Shown here in pieces: positions 9,598 to 43,707 of a stretch of DNA of 64,000 nt. The notes beneath the pieces are model-generated. The model saw only the letters and a program-made list of their open reading frames with translations, made no database searches and was not told the DNA's origin. The DNA is taken from the NCBI RefSeq assembly GCF_014725735.1, contig NZ_CP061368.1, positions 1,193,225-1,257,224 on the forward strand, written 5' to 3'. The stretch comes from Wenzhouxiangella sp. AB-CW3. GTDB lineage: Bacteria; Pseudomonadota; Gammaproteobacteria; Xanthomonadales; Wenzhouxiangellaceae. The translations under genes and the position numbers were made by a program. Position 1 is the stretch's first letter. Every line of letters begins with the position of its first letter.

Positions 9598-9826
9598 TGA
9601 AAGGTTGGAGAAGGTTTCTTGGGGGTACTAGATGGTTTTGTGTTTCTCTTCTCCCTCCCCTCAAATCGAGCGGTTGTGGCTGAAGCGTAAGGAAGCGGGG
9701 GTGGTGGTGGATGGCGCGGTCTCAAGCGGCCCGGGTTCTGGCAATGCAGTAGCCGGACTCTCGGTTGTTCAAATGCCTGATAGAAGGCAGGACCGAGAAG
9801 CGGCAACTAGCTAGTGGGCCATGCGG
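9598..9826. other. Non-coding spacer
   Basis: No convincing gene. The only sizeable open frame here (9632-9814) has no family resemblance and no ribosome site. A weak hairpin (GGAGAAG…CTTCTCC, ~9608-9656) is the only structure seen. Confidence 0.5.
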
Positions 9827-9902
9827 TTATTAACCCGGCACGAATGTAGATCGCATTCAGCCGCAGTCTGCCGAAGCGCACACTGCGGCCTGACTTTTTA
9901 GA

Positions 9903-10466
9903 GTCCCCGATAGGGGATCCGTAAACCCCTCGCCTTTAGGCGATGGATGATATTGTGAGGCGATGGAGGATTACAAGCGCGGCAGCCATACGGTCTGGGA
10001 TTGCAAGTACCACCTGGTGTGGACGACCAAGTACCGTTATCAGGTGCTGGGCGGTGATGTTGGACTGAGGTGCAGGGCGCTGTTGCGTGAAATTGCGATG
10101 AGCAAGGAGATGATCATCTACGCCGGCTCGATCAATCGGGACCATGTGCACATGCTGATTGGTATTCCCCCGCAGTTGTCGGTGTCTCGGGCGGTGCAGT
10201 ATCTTAAGGGGAAGAGTTCCCACAAGCTGTTATCGGAGTTCCGGGCACTAAAGAAGCGGTATTGGGGCCAGCACCTGTGGGCCCGGGGCTACTGGGTTGC
10301 GTCGAGCGGCAACGTGACCGACGACGTATGGAAGGAATACATCAAGAATCAGACGCCCCCGGAGCCGGACGATGATTTCGAGGTGGTTTCAATCGGCCGA
10401 ACGGCCGATCGATCCGGCTTTGAGCCGTAACAGCAAGCCACCGGCTTTAGCCGGTGGTCGTTGACA
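9903..10466 (+). mobile_element. IS200/IS605-family insertion sequence
   Basis: A 564-bp single-gene element. Its ends are set by comparison with the uninterrupted copy of the host repeat at 38968-39255. The left flank …CTTTTTAGA and right flank ATCAGA… are contiguous there (allowing for strand). There is no target duplication, as expected for this family. Subterminal hairpins are seen at the left (CCTCGCC-TTTA-GGCGATGG, ~9928-9946) and right (CCACCGGC-TTTA-GCCGGTGG, 10438-10457). No tnpB/IscB gene is present. Confidence 0.9.
9963..10430 (+). CDS. tnpA: IS200-type TnpA (HUH/Y1) transposase
   Basis: A 155-residue single-strand DNA transposase of the Y1 HUH class. It shows the N-terminal WDCKYHLVWTTKYRYQVL strand, the metal-binding HVH in RDHVHMLIGIPP (~60), the KGKSSHKLL helix, the WARGYWVASSG segment and the catalytic tyrosine in EYIKNQ (~127). 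Length and motifs are full, so it is probably functional. It lies between the two subterminal hairpins of the element and is the only gene in it. Its last ~20 residues (SIGRTADRSGFEP) are not conserved in the family and run into the right-end region. Confidence 0.93.
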   Translation: MEDYKRGSHTVWDCKYHLVWTTKYRYQVLGGDVGLRCRALLREIAMSKEMIIYAGSINRDHVHMLIGIPPQLSVSRAVQYLKGKSSHKLLSEFRALKKRYWGQHLWARGYWVASSGNVTDDVWKEYIKNQTPPEPDDDFEVVSIGRTADRSGFEP

Positions 10467-10623
10467 ATCAGAAAGTTAGGGGCTTCAATCAGGGCCCGAC
10501 TCTGCGTTCTCGCTCTTGCCAAGGGGATCACCCTTGGCGGCGAGCGACGCCTTGATTCGGGCCCTGATTGAAGCCCTGAATGTGATCTACATTCGTGCCG
10601 GGTTAATAATAAGGTAACGCTCA

Positions 10624-10719
10624 GAGCCACTGTGCTGGCGGGAATCAAGGCGCGTTTCGCAGGGAATGGAGCGTCCTTGCCAGGAAACGCAACGCCGAGT
10701 CGCGCCAGCACAGTGACTC
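10624..10719. repeat. Fold-back element H3 (FB2 family)
   Basis: Arms 10624-10640 and 10703-10719 (17 bp, one mismatch). The interior begins GAATCAAGGCG and ends AACGCCGAGT, with an inner stem CGTTTC/GAAACG. These internal-loop bases match hairpins H1 and H2, while the outer and inner stems are different. Confidence 0.8.
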
Positions 10720-10726
10720 CCGAAGG

Positions 10727-10890
10727 GCCGTCGCACAAGCGCCGTGGGCAGGGCAGGCGAAACCGCATGGCGACTTTCGCGTAGCGAATGAAGCCTTGCG
10801 AGTGGAGCCGCTGCACGTGTTCCGCTCGCTTGAATTGGCGACGGCCAGTCCTGCGCTCGCGCGCCTTGCCCACGACGCTTGTGCGACGGC
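10727..10890. repeat. Fold-back element H4
   Basis: 28-bp arms at 10727-10754 and 10863-10890 with two mismatches, one of them G-T. They enclose ~108 bp with inner hairpin potential. No gene. It ends 30 bp before the fahA stop codon (bottom strand), so it lies in the 3' region of the homogentisate operon. Confidence 0.8.
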
Positions 10891-10920
10891 TGAGTGCTAC
10901 CCAGTTGGCCGCGTGGCCCA

Positions 10921-11907
10921 CTAGCGCTCGTATCGCACCACTTCCTGTTCGATGGCTCCGAAGAGGGATTCGCCGTCGCGGGATTTCATTTCGATGCGCA
11001 CCTTGTCACCGAACTGCATGAACGGCGTTTCCGGCTTGCCGTTGGCGATGATTTCCAGCATGCGCTTCTCGGCCAGGCAGGACGCACCCTTGCTGGTGTC
11101 CTGGTTGGCGATGGTGCCCGAGCCCAGCAGGGTGCCGGCGGCCAGGGGACGGCTCTTGACGGCGTGGGCGAGCAGCTCGGCGAAGGAGAACTGCATGTCC
11201 TCGCCCGCTTCGGGTTCGCCGAACAGTTCGCCGTTCAAGTGCGTGAGCAGCGGCAGGTGCAGCTTCTCGTTCTGCCAGGCATCGCCCAGCTCGTCCGGGG
11301 TCACGACCACCGGGGCCAGTGCCGAGCGCGGCTTGGACTGCAGGAAACCGAAGCCCTTGGCCAGTTCGCCGGGAATCAGGTTTCTCAGCGAGACGTCATT
11401 GAGGATGGTCACCAGCTGGATGTGGCTGGCACATTCCTCGGGCGTGGCGCCCATCGGCACGTCGTCGGTGATCACGCCGATCTCGGATTCGAAGTCGATG
11501 CCCCATTCGGTCGAGGCCATGGCGATGTCGTCGAGCGGCCCCATGAAGCCGTCGGACACGGCCTGGTACATCAGCGGGTCGGTGAAAAAGCTCTCCGGCA
11601 CCTCGGCGCCACGTGCCTTGCGCACGCGCTCGACATGCGGCAAGTAGGCCGAGCCGTCGAGGAACTGGTAGCAGCGGGGCAGGGGAGCAGCCAGCTCACT
11701 CATGTCCAGGTCAAATGCGTCCTCGACCTTGCCGGCATTGAGTTCATCGTAGAGCGTGTTGAGCCGGGGCGCGGTCTGGCCCCAGTCGTCGAGTGCATCC
11801 TGCAGCGAGGCGGCGATATCCTTCGCCTCCACCGCTCGGGTCATGTCGCGATTGACGACGATCAGCGTACCGTCGCGACCGCCTTCTTTGAGGGTTGCCA
11901 GTTTCAT
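10921..11907 (-). CDS. fahA: Fumarylacetoacetate hydrolase
   Basis: A 328-residue enzyme that splits fumarylacetoacetate into fumarate and acetoacetate, the last step of tyrosine breakdown through homogentisate. The FAH-fold metal ligands are in DFESEIGVITDDVP (D-x-E-x-E pattern, ~137-141), and the C-terminal GTLLGSGTIAN loop is present. The pathway assignment rests on its place directly downstream of hmgA and hppD. No maleylacetoacetate isomerase gene is seen in the window; it may be elsewhere. The gap to hmgA (11908-12116) is filled by a heptad-repeat array. Confidence 0.92.
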   Translation of the reverse strand: MKLATLKEGGRDGTLIVVNRDMTRAVEAKDIAASLQDALDDWGQTAPRLNTLYDELNAGKVEDAFDLDMSELAAPLPRCYQFLDGSAYLPHVERVRKARGAEVPESFFTDPLMYQAVSDGFMGPLDDIAMASTEWGIDFESEIGVITDDVPMGATPEECASHIQLVTILNDVSLRNLIPGELAKGFGFLQSKPRSALAPVVVTPDELGDAWQNEKLHLPLLTHLNGELFGEPEAGEDMQFSFAELLAHAVKSRPLAAGTLLGSGTIANQDTSKGASCLAEKRMLEIIANGKPETPFMQFGDKVRIEMKSRDGESLFGAIEQEVVRYER

Positions 11908-37112: not shown

Positions 37113-38942
37113 ATGAGGAAAGAGTTGCTTTTGCTGTCTGCCGGGGCGGTGTTTGTTCTGGCCGCCTGTGAGGCGCCCGAGCCGCCACCGGAGCCGGTCG
37201 AGGAGGCGCCCGCCGAGGCGGTGGCCGCCGATCCCTCAGAGCGGTTGCAGTTTCCCTTTCCGGTGCGGGTGACCGAACACCGTGATGGCGATGATCTGGT
37301 CAGTGCCGGCCTGAACGTGGCGGATCTGACCGGCACTGCACCGGCGCCTGCCGACCCTGAAGCCCCCTCTGCCGCCGAGTTGCGGCGCCTTGCCGTTCAT
37401 GCCAACTGGCAGGGCATTGGCACCCTGTCACCGGCCGCCGGCCTGGGCGGACTGCTCGACGGACTTCCCGAAGTGCCCGGACATGAGTTTCATGCCTTCC
37501 TGACCCTGCCGGATGCCAGCCAGCCGTTCCGAGTGGCACTGCAGTTGCCCGACAGCTTTGATGCCGATGCGGCCTGCCTGGTTGTCAGCCCGGCATCGGG
37601 CTCACGTGGGACATACGGGGCCATTGCCGTGGCCGCGCCTTGGGCATTCGAGCGTGGCTGTGCCGTGGCTTATACCGACAAGGCGGCCGGTACCGATATC
37701 TTCGATTTCTCCGATGGCACGGGGACCGACCTGGCAGGGCGGCGAGTCGAGTCCGGCGAGGCCGAACTGGGCCTGGCATTCGCGCCGCTCGAGGAACCGG
37801 CCGCGACCGTGGGCATGCGGCATGCTCACTCGGGCGACCAGCCCGAAGCTGACTGGGGTCAGCACGTGCTTGCCGCGGCGGCCTTCGGCCTGGATGTCAT
37901 TGATTCGGTGCTGGATGCCGAACTCGATGCCGATTCGGTGCGTGTTCTCGGGTTTGCCCTTTCCAACGGCGGCAACGCAGTCCTGCGGGCAGCAGAGATC
38001 GACGATTCCGGCCTGCTCGATGCCGTGGTGGCCGTGAGTCCGAACATCACGCCGCTGGGACAGCCGGCACTGTTTGACTATGCCAGCCTGGCCGCGCTTT
38101 ACCAGCCCTGCCTGCTGGCCGATGCCGATTTTCTTGACGAAGTGCCCATGGGCCAGTCACCGATGGATGTGATGGGCCAGGCTCGTTGCCAGTCGCTGGC
38201 CGAAGCGGGGCTGCTGGATGAGCCCAGTCCCTCGGCGGCGCGTGATGTGCTGACCGAGGCCGGTTTTGACGACGCGGCCCTGAGCCAGAGCGCGGTCAAT
38301 ATCGCCCTGGATCTGTGGCGCTCGGTGCTGGTGACCTATGCATCGTCCTACCTCCAGCGCGGGCCGTTTGACATGCCCTGCGGATTCGCTCTGGAGGCGG
38401 CGGAGGCCACTGCCGCCCAGCGCCAGGCTTGGTGGGGCAGTCATTCCGGTATTGCGCCCGGCAACGGCATTGAAATCGTCGACACGATGGCCGACGGCAA
38501 TGATTCGACTTTTGCCGGCCTCAAGTGCCTGCGTGAACTGGTCGATGGCAACGGCCCCGAATCCGACAGCTTGCATGCCGCCCTGCGCGCCACCCAGGCC
38601 AGCGCGGTGCTGCCTGATATTCCCGTGGTGGTGGTTCATGGCCGCGATGATGGACTGATTCCGGTGGCTTTCAGCAGCCGCCCCTATGTCACCATGGCCC
38701 GCAACAACGGCGCCCGAATAGCCTACTGGGAGGTGGAGCAGTCGCAGCACTTCGATGCCTTGCTGGCCGTACCGGGTTTTGCCGGCGAGTACGTCCCCAT
38801 TCTGCCGTATGGCTGGCAGGCCATGGATCATATCCTGGCCGTGCTCGATGATGCCGCAGAACTCGGCGAGGACTGGCACATCCAACCGCAGCCACCCGAG
38901 CCTGGCGAGCCACTGGAAATCGAACACCTGGGGCTCGAGTAA
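37113..38942 (+). CDS. D-(-)-3-hydroxybutyrate oligomer hydrolase, lipoprotein
   Basis: 609 residues of the 3-hydroxybutyrate oligomer hydrolase family. A lipoprotein signal with lipobox LAAC (cysteine 19) is followed by a proline/glutamate-rich spacer, so it is anchored outside the cytoplasm. The catalytic serine lies in GFALSNGGNAVLRAAE (~290), and SGSRGTYGAIAVAAPWAFERGCAVAYTDKAAG (from ~155) is a family hallmark. A C-terminal DGLIP (~515) and SQHFDALL (~545) provide the likely acid and base. It would release 3-hydroxybutyrate monomers for BdhA, encoded divergently. Confidence 0.9.
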   Translation: MRKELLLLSAGAVFVLAACEAPEPPPEPVEEAPAEAVAADPSERLQFPFPVRVTEHRDGDDLVSAGLNVADLTGTAPAPADPEAPSAAELRRLAVHANWQGIGTLSPAAGLGGLLDGLPEVPGHEFHAFLTLPDASQPFRVALQLPDSFDADAACLVVSPASGSRGTYGAIAVAAPWAFERGCAVAYTDKAAGTDIFDFSDGTGTDLAGRRVESGEAELGLAFAPLEEPAATVGMRHAHSGDQPEADWGQHVLAAAAFGLDVIDSVLDAELDADSVRVLGFALSNGGNAVLRAAEIDDSGLLDAVVAVSPNITPLGQPALFDYASLAALYQPCLLADADFLDEVPMGQSPMDVMGQARCQSLAEAGLLDEPSPSAARDVLTEAGFDDAALSQSAVNIALDLWRSVLVTYASSYLQRGPFDMPCGFALEAAEATAAQRQAWWGSHSGIAPGNGIEIVDTMADGNDSTFAGLKCLRELVDGNGPESDSLHAALRATQASAVLPDIPVVVVHGRDDGLIPVAFSSRPYVTMARNNGARIAYWEVEQSQHFDALLAVPGFAGEYVPILPYGWQAMDHILAVLDDAAELGEDWHIQPQPPEPGEPLEIEHLGLE

Positions 38943-38967: not shown

Positions 38968-39255
38968 TATTAACCCGGCACGAATGCAGATCACATTCAG
39001 GGCTTCAATCAGGGCCCGAATCAAGGCGTCGCTCGCCGCCAAGGGTGATTCCCTTGGCAAGAGCGAGAACGCAGAGTCGGGCCCTGATTGAAGTCCCTAA
39101 CTATCTGATTCTAAAAAGTCAGGCCGCAGTGTGCGCTTCGGCAGACTGCGTTATCGAAACTTGCTGTAGGAGTGCTACAGCGGCGTTTCGCTGCCTTGCT
39201 GCCGAAGCGCACACTGCGGCTGAATGCGATCTACATTCGTGCCGGGTTAATAATA
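38968..39255. repeat. Composite inverted-repeat element C, copy 2 (intact), with hairpins H1 and H2
   Basis: A 288-bp element with ~34-bp terminal inverted repeats beginning TATTAACCCGGCACGAATG. It encloses H1 (arms 39000-39019 and 39077-39097) and H2 (perfect 22-bp arms 39123-39144 and 39199-39220). H1 (top strand) and H2 (bottom strand) share the loop bases CAAGGC, CGCC, AAG and AACGCAG-GT, but all their stems differ. It sits between convergent genes; its right end is next to the amidotransferase stop codon. Confidence 0.9.
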
Positions 39256-39256
39256 G

Positions 39257-40003
39257 CTAACGGGAACCGAGAATCACGCGTCGCCGGGGGCTCTCGAGCA
39301 GCCCGAGCCAGTTGCCAAAGACCTGATCGGCCAGTTGCAGTGATTGCGGCAGATGCTGTTGCGTGGCTTCGCGCAAGTCCTCCGGTGTCTTGCGCAGGCC
39401 CGCTGCGGCCAGGTCCTTGCGATAGAAGGGCAGGGTCAGCCAGCGCCGGATGAGACGCTCGTCGAGCTCGAGGTGAAACTGGAACCCCCAGGCGCGTTCA
39501 CCATGGCGGAATGCCTGGCAGCCGGACTGGTCGGACACCGCCAGAGAAACCGAATCAGCCGGGCAGTCAAACCCCCAATGGTGCCATTGATAGACCGGTC
39601 TCCGATCTTCCAGCGGGCAGAGTACCGGATCGTGTGACGTGACGTTGGTGGGCTTGAGGTCGTACCAGCCGATCTCGGGTTCTTCGCAGGGGCCCACCGG
39701 TGCCCCCAGCACATGGGCCATGAGCTGGGCGCCCAGGCAGATGCCCAGTACCGGCATGTCGGCTGCCATGGCTTGTTCGATCAGGTGGCATTCGGTCAGC
39801 AGATGGGGGTGGGTTTGGGCATCGTCGACCTGCATCGGCCCGCCCAGGACGATGAGCGCCTGGTAGCGATCCAGTCGGGGTCGGGCATCCGGGTCGCGGG
39901 CGAAGTTGACGTAGCGAATGCGATGGCCGCGCTCGCGCAGCATCGGATCGAGCAGACCCAGCGGTTCGGCTACCACATGCTTCAGTACCAGTACTCGTGC
40001 CAT
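39257..40003 (-). CDS. Class I glutamine amidotransferase (GATase1) protein
   Basis: 248 residues from the start at 40003, where the domain begins MARVLVLKHV; 40015 is an alternative. Triad: nucleophile in VLGICLGAQLMAHVLGA (~98), His and Glu in WGFQFHLELDE (~185). It is a stand-alone GMP-synthase-like amidotransferase without a synthetase domain, as in the YfeJ-like group; possible roles are gamma-glutamyl hydrolysis or polyamine breakdown. No partner gene is adjacent. The stop codon directly follows the fold-back element. Confidence 0.85.
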   Translation of the reverse strand: MARVLVLKHVVAEPLGLLDPMLRERGHRIRYVNFARDPDARPRLDRYQALIVLGGPMQVDDAQTHPHLLTECHLIEQAMAADMPVLGICLGAQLMAHVLGAPVGPCEEPEIGWYDLKPTNVTSHDPVLCPLEDRRPVYQWHHWGFDCPADSVSLAVSDQSGCQAFRHGERAWGFQFHLELDERLIRRWLTLPFYRKDLAAAGLRKTPEDLREATQQHLPQSLQLADQVFGNWLGLLESPRRRVILGSR

Positions 40004-40065
40004 GACCAGCTTCATGTGCTGCAGGGGTGAGCGCCTGATCATAGTCCATACGCTATGCTTGCACG

Positions 40066-41007
40066 ATGGAATTATCGGCAGTTCAACGTTTGCTCGTCTT
40101 TGTGCGCTACTGGGGCAGCATTCTCGTCGCCGCGGCATCGAACTGGCTGCAGAGCCAGGCCTTCATCTATGCCGCTGCCCTGGCTTTCTTTACCGTGTTT
40201 TCGATCGCACCGGTCATGATCGTGGTCGTCACCGTGGTCGGGCTGGTGCTGGGCGAGCGCGCGGCCAAGGGCGAGCTGATGGATCAGCTCGAGGAAGTGC
40301 TCGGCTCACAGGCGGCCGAGGTGGTGCAGACAGCCGTGGTCAATTCCCAGATCGAGCAGAGCGGCATCTGGCCCACGTTGGCCGGCATTGTGGCCATAGT
40401 GCTGGGTGCCACGACGGTCTTTGCTCAGATGCAGCAGTCGCTCAACCAGATCTGGGATGTCGCGCCTCGTCCGTCGAAGAACAGCCTGTGGATCTTCATC
40501 AAGGCGCGGGTGCTGTCGCTGACCATCGTGCTGGCCATCGGTTTCGTGCTGATGGTCTCGCTGCTGCTCAGCGTTGCCATGCGGGCGATCATGGCTTTTG
40601 CCGAACAGTGGTTGCCGGTGCCTGGCTGGGCCATGGTGAGCATTGAAATGGCAGTCTCACTGGCCGTCATTACGATGCTGTTCGCGGCGATTTTCAAAAT
40701 ATTGCCCGACGTGGTGCTGGGCTGGCGAGACGTGTTGGCCGGTGCCCTGATCACGGCCGTCCTGTTTACCGCGGGCCGCTCGCTGATCGCGATGTACCTG
40801 GCCAATACCGCAACTGCCTCCACCTATGGTGCGGCCGGATCGCTGGTTTTGTTGCTGCTCTGGGTCAACTACTCCTCGCTGATTCTGCTCTACGGGGCGT
40901 CCATCACACGGGCGCACCTGGAGGCCCGGGGCAAGCGCATTCAGCCCGGGGCCACGGCCGTGTGCGTGCATCGTGAGTTGATTGAGGAGCCGGCCGACTC
41001 TTCCTGA
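40066..41007 (+). CDS. YihY/BrkB-family inner-membrane protein
   Basis: 313 residues with about six transmembrane helices. Family motifs: AAALAFFTVFSIAPVMIV (~38), LNQIWDV (~127), the RD-LAGAL segment GWRDVLAGALITAVLF (~222) and YGAAGSLVLLLLWVNYSSLILLYGASITRAHL (from ~255). Formerly called ribonuclease BN in error; the function of the family is not established. Divergent from the amidotransferase gene. Confidence 0.92.
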   Translation: MELSAVQRLLVFVRYWGSILVAAASNWLQSQAFIYAAALAFFTVFSIAPVMIVVVTVVGLVLGERAAKGELMDQLEEVLGSQAAEVVQTAVVNSQIEQSGIWPTLAGIVAIVLGATTVFAQMQQSLNQIWDVAPRPSKNSLWIFIKARVLSLTIVLAIGFVLMVSLLLSVAMRAIMAFAEQWLPVPGWAMVSIEMAVSLAVITMLFAAIFKILPDVVLGWRDVLAGALITAVLFTAGRSLIAMYLANTATASTYGAAGSLVLLLLWVNYSSLILLYGASITRAHLEARGKRIQPGATAVCVHRELIEEPADSS

Positions 41008-42399: not shown

Positions 42400-43707
42400 A
42401 TGGGTGATCTTTTTTCTGGTCAGGAGTCTTCGGCGGGTGGGGTTGGCAGTCCGTTGGCGGATTGTTTGCGGCCCGGTTCGTTTGATGATGTTGTCGGGCA
42501 GGATCATTTGCTGGGGGTTGATGGTCCGCTGCGGCGTATGGTGGATTCCGGCAAGGTGGCTTCGCTGGTGTTCTGGGGGCCGCCGGGTACGGGCAAGACG
42601 ACGCTTGCGCGTCTGCTGGCGCGGGTCGGCGATCTCGAGTTTGTTCAGATTTCGGCCATTTTTTCCGGGGTGGGGGATCTGAAGAAGATTTTCGAGGCGG
42701 CGCGAGTCCGTCGTGGCAACGGCCGGGGCACGCTGTTGTTTGTCGACGAGATTCATCGATTCAACCGGGCCCAGCAGGACGGCTTTCTGCCGCACGTGGA
42801 AGACGGCACGATCACGCTGGTGGGGGCCACTACCGAGAATCCGTCCTTCGAGCTCAATGCCGCCCTGCTTTCGAGAATGCAGGTGCTGGTGCTCAAGCGG
42901 CTCGACGAGTCGGCGCTGGGCCGCCTGCTGCACCGTGCCGAGGCGCACCTGAAACAGGCCTTGCCGCTGACCGACAAGGCCCGCGAAATGCTGCTGGCCA
43001 TGGCCGACGGGGATGGCCGTTACCTGCTCAATACGGTCGAGGCCATCGCCGACCTGGCTGTTGCCGATGAACAGCTCGACGAGCAGTCACTGGCCCGCCT
43101 GATTCAGCGCCGTGCACCGGTCTATGACAAGGATCGTGAAGAACACTACAATCTGATATCGGCCCTGCACAAGTCGCTCAGGGGCTCGGATGCCGACGCC
43201 GCGTTGTACTGGATGGCACGTATGCTTGCCGGTGGCGAGGATCCACTCTACATCGCCCGGCGCCTGATCCGATTTGCCTCCGAGGATATTGGCCTGGCTG
43301 ATCCGCAGGCGCTGGTCCAGGCCCTGTCGGCGCGCCAGGCCTACGAGGTGCTGGGATCACCCGAGGGTGAGTTGGCCCTGGTACAGGCGCTGCTCTACCT
43401 GGCCACCGCGCCCAAGTCCAACGCGGCTTACACGGCCCAGAAGGCGGCCATGCGTGCGGCGGCCGATACCGGCTCGTTGATGCCGCCGGACCATATTCTC
43501 AATGCACCAACCGGATTGATGAAGGAACTGGGTCGAGGCCAGGGCTATGTCTACGACCATGACACCGAGCGGGGCTTTTCCGGCCAGGATTACTTCCCCG
43601 ACGAGATGTCGAGACAGCAGTTTTACCGGCCGGCCGAGCGCGGCTTCGAGCGTGAGGTCGCCAGGCGGCTCGATTGGTGGGCCAGACAGCGCAAGCTGAA
43701 TTCGTGA
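42400..43707 (+). CDS. rarA: Replication-associated recombination protein A (AAA+)
   Basis: 435 residues from ATG 42400, preceded at 7 bp by AGGA; the GTG just before it is less well placed. Walker A GPPGTGKTT (~55), Walker B LLFVDEIHRFN (~105), sensor 1 GATTENPSF, and the C-terminal MgsA/RarA tetramerisation region (ARMLAGGEDPLYIARRLIRFASEDIGLADP; QAYEVLGSPEGELALVQALLYLATAPKSNA). It acts at stalled replication forks with RecA and SSB. The first ~50 codons are unusually T-rich compared with the rest. Confidence 0.95.
   Translation: MGDLFSGQESSAGGVGSPLADCLRPGSFDDVVGQDHLLGVDGPLRRMVDSGKVASLVFWGPPGTGKTTLARLLARVGDLEFVQISAIFSGVGDLKKIFEAARVRRGNGRGTLLFVDEIHRFNRAQQDGFLPHVEDGTITLVGATTENPSFELNAALLSRMQVLVLKRLDESALGRLLHRAEAHLKQALPLTDKAREMLLAMADGDGRYLLNTVEAIADLAVADEQLDEQSLARLIQRRAPVYDKDREEHYNLISALHKSLRGSDADAALYWMARMLAGGEDPLYIARRLIRFASEDIGLADPQALVQALSARQAYEVLGSPEGELALVQALLYLATAPKSNAAYTAQKAAMRAAADTGSLMPPDHILNAPTGLMKELGRGQGYVYDHDTERGFSGQDYFPDEMSRQQFYRPAERGFEREVARRLDWWARQRKLNS

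Follow-up and report, generated by a model that had tools for sequence, protein, structure and literature searches.

The 281-bp element FB2, which lies in a 64,000-nt stretch of Wenzhouxiangella sp. AB-CW3 DNA (the window; contig NZ_CP061368.1, positions 1,193,225 to 1,257,224), is a complete non-autonomous transposon (MITE) that carries two inverted copies of a hairpin whose internal loops are fixed and whose stems vary while remaining paired. The hairpin fold is under selection and, as judged from the sequences of its carriers, looks like a cargo common to MITEs of unrelated transposases.

FB2 occupies the gap between two convergent genes, one for a hydrolase and one for an amidotransferase. 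The features of this locus, numbered from the first base of the window, are listed below; R1 and R2 are covariance models of the hairpin built from 22 and, more broadly, 34 sequences.

37113–38942, + strand: 3HB-oligomer hydrolase gene, neighbour of FB2 (Pfam)
38968–38969: TA target duplication, left copy (deduced from copies L003 and L010)
38970–39250: FB2, complete non-autonomous element (MITE), 281 bp (sequence and genome copies)
38970–38999, + strand: left terminal inverted repeat (TIR), begins TTAACCCGGCACGAATG (sequence and genome copies)
39000–39097, + strand: hairpin H1 (fold z −10.9; R1 and R2 matches)
39098–39122: linker separating H1 and H2 (sequence; a second copy at 10 kb has an IS200 here)
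39123–39220, − strand: hairpin H2 (fold z −9.8; R1 match)
39221–39250, − strand: right TIR (sequence and genome copies)
39251–39252: TA target duplication, right copy (deduced from L003 and L010)
39257–40138, − strand: glutamine amidotransferase gene, neighbour of FB2 (Pfam)

Side-by-side comparison of copies defines the FB2 unit as TTAACCCGG..CCGGGTTAA, 281 bp long with TA on each side. Its TIRs span ~30 bp, and the left and right ends are 94% identical across 33 bases. Searched by BLAST with the complete element, the genome yields nine near-full copies (FB2 included) at 98–100% identity, together with a split copy and numerous isolated ends. Two copies are inserted at different TAs within the TIR of another element, FB1, with junctions that read GCGGT-TA-[FB2]-TA-ATAAGG (L010) and GCGGTTAA-TA-[FB2]-TA-AGG (L003). 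Comparison of these insertions with uninterrupted FB1 TIR sequence, for example GCGGTTAATAAGG in L032, identifies TA as the target duplication; a third copy in an FB1-type TIR (L008) sits in differing host sequence and was left out of this analysis. With TIRs, a TA duplication, multiple copies and no transposase of its own, FB2 is a MITE. A ~90-bp palindromic derivative (L012/L016, genome positions 3601029–3601121) is a minimal form that retains both TIRs and, of the hairpins, no more than the tip of H2's outer stem; it adjoins an H4-type hairpin.

The cargo of FB2 consists of H1 and H2, which have opposite orientations. H1 comprises an outer stem of ~20 bp, the loop CAAGGC/AACGCAGAG, stem A, the loop GCC/AA, stem B and the terminal loop TGATT; H2 has the loops of H1 and different stems. 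Predicted folding energies of H1, H2 and a third hairpin, H3 of FB1, are −71.9, −70.1 and −58.0 kcal/mol; the fold z-scores are −10.9, −9.8 and −6.0, and none of 200 shuffled sequences folds equally well. A re-reading of the sequence confirms the positions and sequences that an earlier model-made reading of the bare DNA (the sequence-only reading) had given for the three hairpins. It had aligned them through their unpaired bases. The outer loop, CAAGGC .. AACGC, is present in each. The inner loop is CGCC/AAG in H1 and H2 and GCAG/AG in H3; H3's sister copy, L008, has CGCC/AAG. H1, absent from the sequences of both models, matches R1 (39010–39083, E 7e-9) and R2 (E 1e-10), and H2, itself included in R1, matches that model at 39136–39210 (E 2e-19). 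Neither model matches H3 in a search of the window, so that its assignment rests on the outer loop and the stems. A weak R2 match elsewhere in the window (42916–42975, − strand, E 0.0095) was taken as chance.

Across copies, the internal loops are conserved and the terminal loops are not. The module is characterised by CAAGGC/AACGC(A/C)G and by an inner loop of G followed by CC, AA or CA opposite AA or GA, and the stems between these loops vary. Among 114 stem combinations, parsed such that the outer loop and an opposing AA or GA were required, the inner loop is GCC/AA in 77, GCA/AA in 23, GAA/AA or GAA/GA in 8 and different in the other 6. One copy from Oscillospiraceae and one from Gammaproteobacteria have minimum-energy folds of identical layout, to which the folds of L206 and L096 come close; that of L189 departs from the consensus fold.

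The window contains a second FB2 copy, which is part of a nest of three mobile elements (an IS200 in an FB2 MITE in an FB1 MITE, 9814–10921):

9814–10921: FB1, the H3-bearing element, TIR begins GTGGGCCATGCGGTTAATAAGGTAAC; split by the nested FB2 copy
9830–10606: second FB2 copy, interrupted by IS200; TA at 9828–9829 and 10607–10608
9904–10466, + strand: IS200-type element within the second FB2 copy; tnpA at 9963–10430 (Y1_Tnp, E 2e-42)
10624–10719, + strand: hairpin H3 (fold; degraded inner loop; 7-bp stem GCGTTTC/GAAACGC)
10806–10880, − strand: second, inverted hairpin arm of FB1 (R1 E 8e-6; R2 E 7e-9)

In the nested FB2 copy, the inner part of the left hairpin is deleted (sequence; L010, L014 and L015), and the remaining hairpin matches R1 at 10493–10566 (− strand). 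FB1 is distinct from FB2 and has seven genome copies, that of the window included, in which at least 290 bases of a 309-bp query are matched. The position of tnpA between hairpins, and the resemblance of paired inverted hairpins to REPINs, would fit REP/REPIN-like units that have a Y1 transposase (RAYT or IS200) as their mover, the tnpA copy of the window being the active form. Several observations oppose this idea. A second genomic copy of the IS200 has an identical left boundary, preceded by TTTAGA, and lacks the hairpins (a string search did not find its right end); when 20 of the 23 Y1_Tnp loci found were scanned with R2, the window copy was the only one with hairpins; the genomes G003, G006 and G013 bear hairpins and yield no Y1_Tnp match; and the insertions duplicate TA. 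We thus rejected IS200 or RAYT as the driver on the strength of the locus scan, the second IS200 copy and the Y1-free genomes, and leave the REP/REPIN-like reading hardly any credence. The second IS200 copy likewise led us to reject the hairpins as IS200/IS605 ends. Because that copy and 19 of the 20 scanned loci are free of hairpins, the IS200 in the 10-kb FB2 copy is a passenger, acquired by secondary insertion. REP/REPIN systems with RAYTs resemble the present elements in their inverted hairpin pairs and many copies, but differ in that the present hairpins lack an association with Y1 and are accompanied by a TA duplication.

The hairpin extends far beyond this genome. A loop-only pattern, in which the stems are free, matches 22 places in the source genome, as compared to 2 for a reversed control, and matched 38 of 61 genomes, with the matches in distant relatives including chance ones in coding sequence. 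Among the loop-only matches are new subfamilies that have other stems and other TIRs. The usual build is TIR, hairpin, CCCTTCGGG-like linker, inverted hairpin and TIR, or simply TIR, hairpin and TIR. R1 matches at least 51 of 151 genomes of the order (E ≤ 0.001) and R2 at least 71 of 299 genomes of the phylum (E ≤ 1e-4); five R2-matched genomes hold 15, 35, 20, 58 and 64 matches at E ≤ 0.001. The last two counts, an unusual load, belong to G430 and G379, two incomplete genomes (1.3 and 2.0 Mb) from other parts of the phylum. The GTDB species genomes, scanned with a 22-base loop-only pattern, gave at least 120 stretches, some of which resemble chance matches (L159 and L181, with 2 of 7 stem A positions paired). 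The matches listed fall in further Gammaproteobacteria, in metagenome-assembled genomes (MAGs) of Bacillota and in a Nocardioidaceae MAG, and less cleanly elsewhere. Among them are Sedimenticola, Thiodiazotropha, Aliagarivorans, Wenzhouxiangella and Aquitalea, together with MAGs named Gemmiger, Faecalibacterium, Ruminococcus, Oscillibacter, Angelakisella, Oscillospiraceae and Nocardioidaceae. Pairing is poorer in a Gemmatimonadetes MAG (L189) and an Elusimicrobia MAG (L231), which have G.A mismatches in stem A. All listed matches outside Pseudomonadota are on MAG contigs, for which misbinning is possible. Viral contigs gave no hairpin match. The loop-only pattern, the covariance models and the GTDB scan thus supply in abundance the further copies on which the sequence-only reading had made its proposal depend.

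Some of these copies depart from the common form. In five Aliagarivorans loci (L166, L172, L195, L203 and L236), the first loop of the partner arm is CGAGGC/AACGA, changed on both sides together. In stem A of L189, L231, L280 and L157, tandem G.A/A.G mismatches replace Watson-Crick pairs, as in sheared-GA helices. The second arm of L231 has a long stem and other loop letters and is perhaps a second type of module.

Several lines of evidence demonstrate that the fold is selected. In alignments A2 and A3, which like A1 were selected with a pairing filter, doubly changed cells number 95 (shuffled mean 29, slid maximum 33) and 225 (shuffled mean 84, slid maximum 111), and in A3 six of eight stem A pairs have four or more standard pair types. 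Two further measures show no excess over controls: the observed value is reached by 205 of 500 shuffles for further pair types in A2 and by 76 of 500 for pairs changed on both sides in A3. The unfiltered test uses loop-only matches, 120 of the 121 listed having a 7-nt gap and yielding 56 distinct stem A strand pairs. In these 7-nt stems, 258 of 336 positions are Watson-Crick, as compared to a mean of 99 and a maximum of 134 in 1000 shuffles. The mismatches are skewed: G.A and A.G total 36 vs 1 for T.C and C.T, and G.T occurs 20 times vs 10 for A.C. Clustering into 23 representatives that differ by more than 4 of 14 letters leaves 100 of 138 positions Watson-Crick, with G.A at 14 vs 1 for T.C (8 vs 1 representatives) and G.T at 9 vs 7 for A.C; the G.A-rich stem with the most matches (10) comes from a single chromosome. 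A larger set of distinct stem A strands has 33 G.T vs 7 A.C, a ratio biased by a parse that rewarded wobble. The G.A asymmetry thus stands after clustering, and the G.T asymmetry mostly does not. The preponderance of G.A over T.C mismatches makes it probable that folding occurs on the CAAGGC strand; this assignment rests on G.A, as the G.T excess hardly survives clustering.

The partner arm, which lies outside the searched pattern, provides a separate view. Among 47 twin-length elements, CAAGGC plus AACGC carries 0, 1, 2, 3 or 5 mismatches in 19, 12, 13, 2 and 1 cases, so that 44 of 47 keep these loops with at most two mismatches, as compared to 18% after shuffling. The hairpin fold is under selection. 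The proposal of the sequence-only reading that conserved internal loops combined with stems changing on both sides mark a selected single-strand fold is strongly supported by A2 and A3, the 56 stems and the partner arms, and the covariation that it expected beyond background is present in the main measures of both alignments, which exceed shuffled and slid controls.

Could the hairpins instead be neutral fold-back DNA, whose arms stay complementary through template switching or gene conversion and whose loops are conserved by descent alone? Long palindromes are corrected by these processes, copies within one genome are nearly identical, and the excess of G.T over A.C is nearly gone after clustering. 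However, the loops are identical across phyla where the stems have no common sequence, and correction of a double-stranded palindrome does not predict the 36:1 ratio of G.A over T.C (14:1 clustered). We consider neutral fold-back unlikely, with a slim chance of being correct.

The hairpins are internal to the elements that carry them. A TIR pair with up to 3 mismatches in 20 encloses 70 of the 89 loop-only matches listed with enough flank, and none of 270 controls; the numbers are 72 vs 5 controls at four mismatches and 76 vs 14 at five. Twin length is found in 49 of 72 TIR-enclosed matches and single length in 23. The ends used in transposition are accordingly the outer TIRs, contrary to the suggestion of the sequence-only reading that a transposon end is recognised as a hairpin.

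The TIRs of the carriers fall into many unrelated families, three of which also end complete elements with transposases. TAGGGC.TGTTCACACTA and TAAGAACGTGTTTGCGATCT terminate IS5-annotated elements on Cupriavidus and Pandoraea plasmids (L284 and L285), and TAGTGTCCTGTCCCGTAAATAA terminates an IS630-annotated element on another Cupriavidus plasmid (L348). The BLAST matches that led to these elements have little length and poor E values (3, 3 and 0.004); both ends were read in each complete element. Per pair of ends, carrier MITEs and complete elements differ at 1 and 4 of 24, 4 and 3 of 21, and 2 and 4 of 21 positions. The IS630-family (L348) and IS5-family (L284, L285) elements thus have TIRs like those of three carrier MITE families, but differ from the MITEs in encoding a transposase and having no hairpin detectable with R2; a lone weak match (E 0.32) in the L285 record lies outside the element. 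Because these three carrier TIRs also end complete, hairpin-free elements, the hairpin looks like a cargo that MITEs of unrelated transposases have in common. L284 and L348 are flanked by TA on each side, and L285 and its MITE relative L274 by TAA on each side; an exact TA duplication is therefore not universal among carriers. The ends of the carrier families L274, L280 and L285 agree better with a 3-base T-N-A duplication than with TA.

BLAST of its own genome, the IS630 locus of that genome and plasmids, where the TIR has no match, yielded no autonomous partner that ends in the FB2 TIR. Several candidate partners were rejected. The surroundings of the genome's own IS630 copy match none of five FB TIRs; DUF4096-type IS5, considered as partner in the family, gave a single match, below cut-off, in 37 genomes; a Salinivibrio match to the FB1 TIR and a Nostoc TIR match involve one end only; and in Rhabdochlamydia a pair of ends ~225 bp apart has no transposase gene wholly within it and no hairpin match. 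A 17-base match that lies beneath an IS4-annotated gene (E 7) was attributed to chance. On reading of the sequence, an apparent 1.5-kb autonomous copy at L158 proved to be two separate elements around an ordinary gene.

Neither the window nor 10 loci from other subfamilies have a match in Rfam 15 at gathering score, in agreement with the sequence-only reading, which had recognised no known family. In a loose search, the best matches of FB2 are microRNA precursors (E 0.04 and 0.06), far under the cut-off, and a loose search of eight loci gave a single match at a hairpin, CRISPR-DR33 (E 0.44, 24.7 bits vs a cut-off of 39). GCAAGGC presumably resembles one strand of twister-sister ribozymes; we rejected this identity, as the family is absent from the loose search of FB2.

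The two internal loops might still be the active site of a new, putative self-cleaving ribozyme that would cut MITE transcripts beside AACGC(A/C)G. Internal loops that are short and fixed, stems free to vary, a wide scatter, lack of gene association and the absence of Rfam matches at cut-off are compatible with such an activity, and recent small ribozymes looked alike before their activity was assayed. However, both loops vary by subfamily (GCC/AA, GCA/AA and GAA/GA, and the changed outer loop of Aliagarivorans), and we regard a ribozyme as improbable.

Published elements resemble FB2 in part. Small bacterial MITEs with RNA hairpins include Correia/NEMIS, ERIC and RUP (~100–155 bp), and RUP is paired with IS630-Spn1 and TA sites (PMC2229807). 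They are like the 281-bp FB2 in their TIRs, many copies and foldable transcripts; however, the parts of that review available to us treat them per genus and name no conserved internal-loop module, whereas here a single module is combined with many unrelated TIRs across several phyla. CIR of Caulobacter has two inverted-repeat arms and a linker, but is ~110 bp long, alphaproteobacterial and characterised by GANTC in a terminal loop (PMC2229807), whereas here the internal loops are conserved. GANTC does not define the present elements: H1 has GATTC at its terminal loop, other copies have GATCC, and H2 has neither. Within the accessible portion of this review, RUP (IS630-like, TA) and CIR (two arms, linker) are the nearest relatives. 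The R0 and R2 repeats of Pseudomonas fluorescens SBW25 (89 and 110 bp) are MITE-like, with inverted repeats that match full insertion sequences; we liken them to FB2 by description only, and no covarying hairpin is described for them in the sections available (PMC2718517). A literature search of open-access main texts recognised no description of the hairpin, and the accessible parts of PMC10969869, PMC2267715 and PMC2718517 do not describe it. The MITE is of a known kind; the conserved, covarying cargo hairpin, which MITEs with unrelated ends have in common in several phyla, is undescribed as far as this search extends.

The orientation of the hairpin relative to genes bears on its role. Among 60 of 192 R2 matches, taken from four of the five genomes and classified with simple ORF predictions, 14 are sense to both flanking ORFs, 13 antisense to both, 18 convergent, 14 divergent and 1 unresolved; the picture is blurred by eight loci inside a predicted ORF and by some G173 loci that are perhaps twin elements. 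The lack of bias argues against a strand-specific (cis) effect on neighbouring genes or host mRNA, and with 14 sense vs 13 antisense cases the regulatory 3′-end RNA offered by the sequence-only reading is not favoured. What remains is a function that serves the element itself, or one in trans.

The selected form may be a single-stranded DNA hairpin, extruded on one strand in replication, repair or an excision intermediate. A conserved DNA-handling protein would then bind the hairpin and aid copying or survival of the element, as for attC and REP hairpins. The carriers are related to DNA transposons, the inverted twin copies place one hairpin on each DNA strand, and G.A and G.T pairs are tolerated in DNA too. 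In addition, an IS110-family element (PF01548, PF02371) is located inside the hairpin outer stem of L248 (4674–5993, − strand, on an uncultured Pseudomonadales chromosome), just after the core in the 3′ arm. The junction recurs in L169, and the hairpin is also present in uninterrupted form (L170). IS110-family elements are known for hairpin targets. However, we know of no use of single strands in IS630 and IS5 transposition, and the hairpins display no clear strand preference: 7 vs 5 in G454 and 6 vs 3 in G332, hand-read from 12 of 15 and 9 of 20 matches listed with the origin assumed at coordinate 1. We consider a DNA hairpin doubtful, yet with a substantial chance of being right.

RNA is weakly favoured over single-stranded DNA because RNA folds often contain internal helices rich in G.A and because twin copies would make transcription orientation-proof. 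We therefore prefer, with slightly more belief than doubt, an explanation in which FB2 is a TA MITE that would be moved in trans by a transposase recognising its TIRs and would carry an ancient hairpin module in two inverted copies, with fixed loops and with stems that are free as long as they pair. Read-through transcription would yield the CAAGGC strand as a folded candidate RNA, in which the two loops may bind a conserved cellular factor or, alternatively, constitute a small catalytic core. The inverted twin copies would ensure one working hairpin per transcript, whichever direction is read, and the benefit would probably go to the element rather than to a single host gene. A bolder proposal, which we put forward tentatively and would sooner doubt than accept, is that the hairpin represents a new pan-bacterial class of functional RNA, possibly a self-cleaving ribozyme, that has passed as MITE cargo between elements moved by unrelated transposases (IS630 and IS5 types), with the RNA and not the transposon as the unit conserved in inheritance.

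MITEs are usually viewed as empty shells that keep only the ends needed by a transposase. Here, MITEs with unrelated ends and differently annotated transposase partners retain one internal fold across several phyla. This points either to an undescribed RNA (or DNA-hairpin) function with a wide distribution among bacteria, or to a general trick that helps non-autonomous transposons to prosper; both alternatives are directly testable, given a short motif and an ample supply of intact copies.
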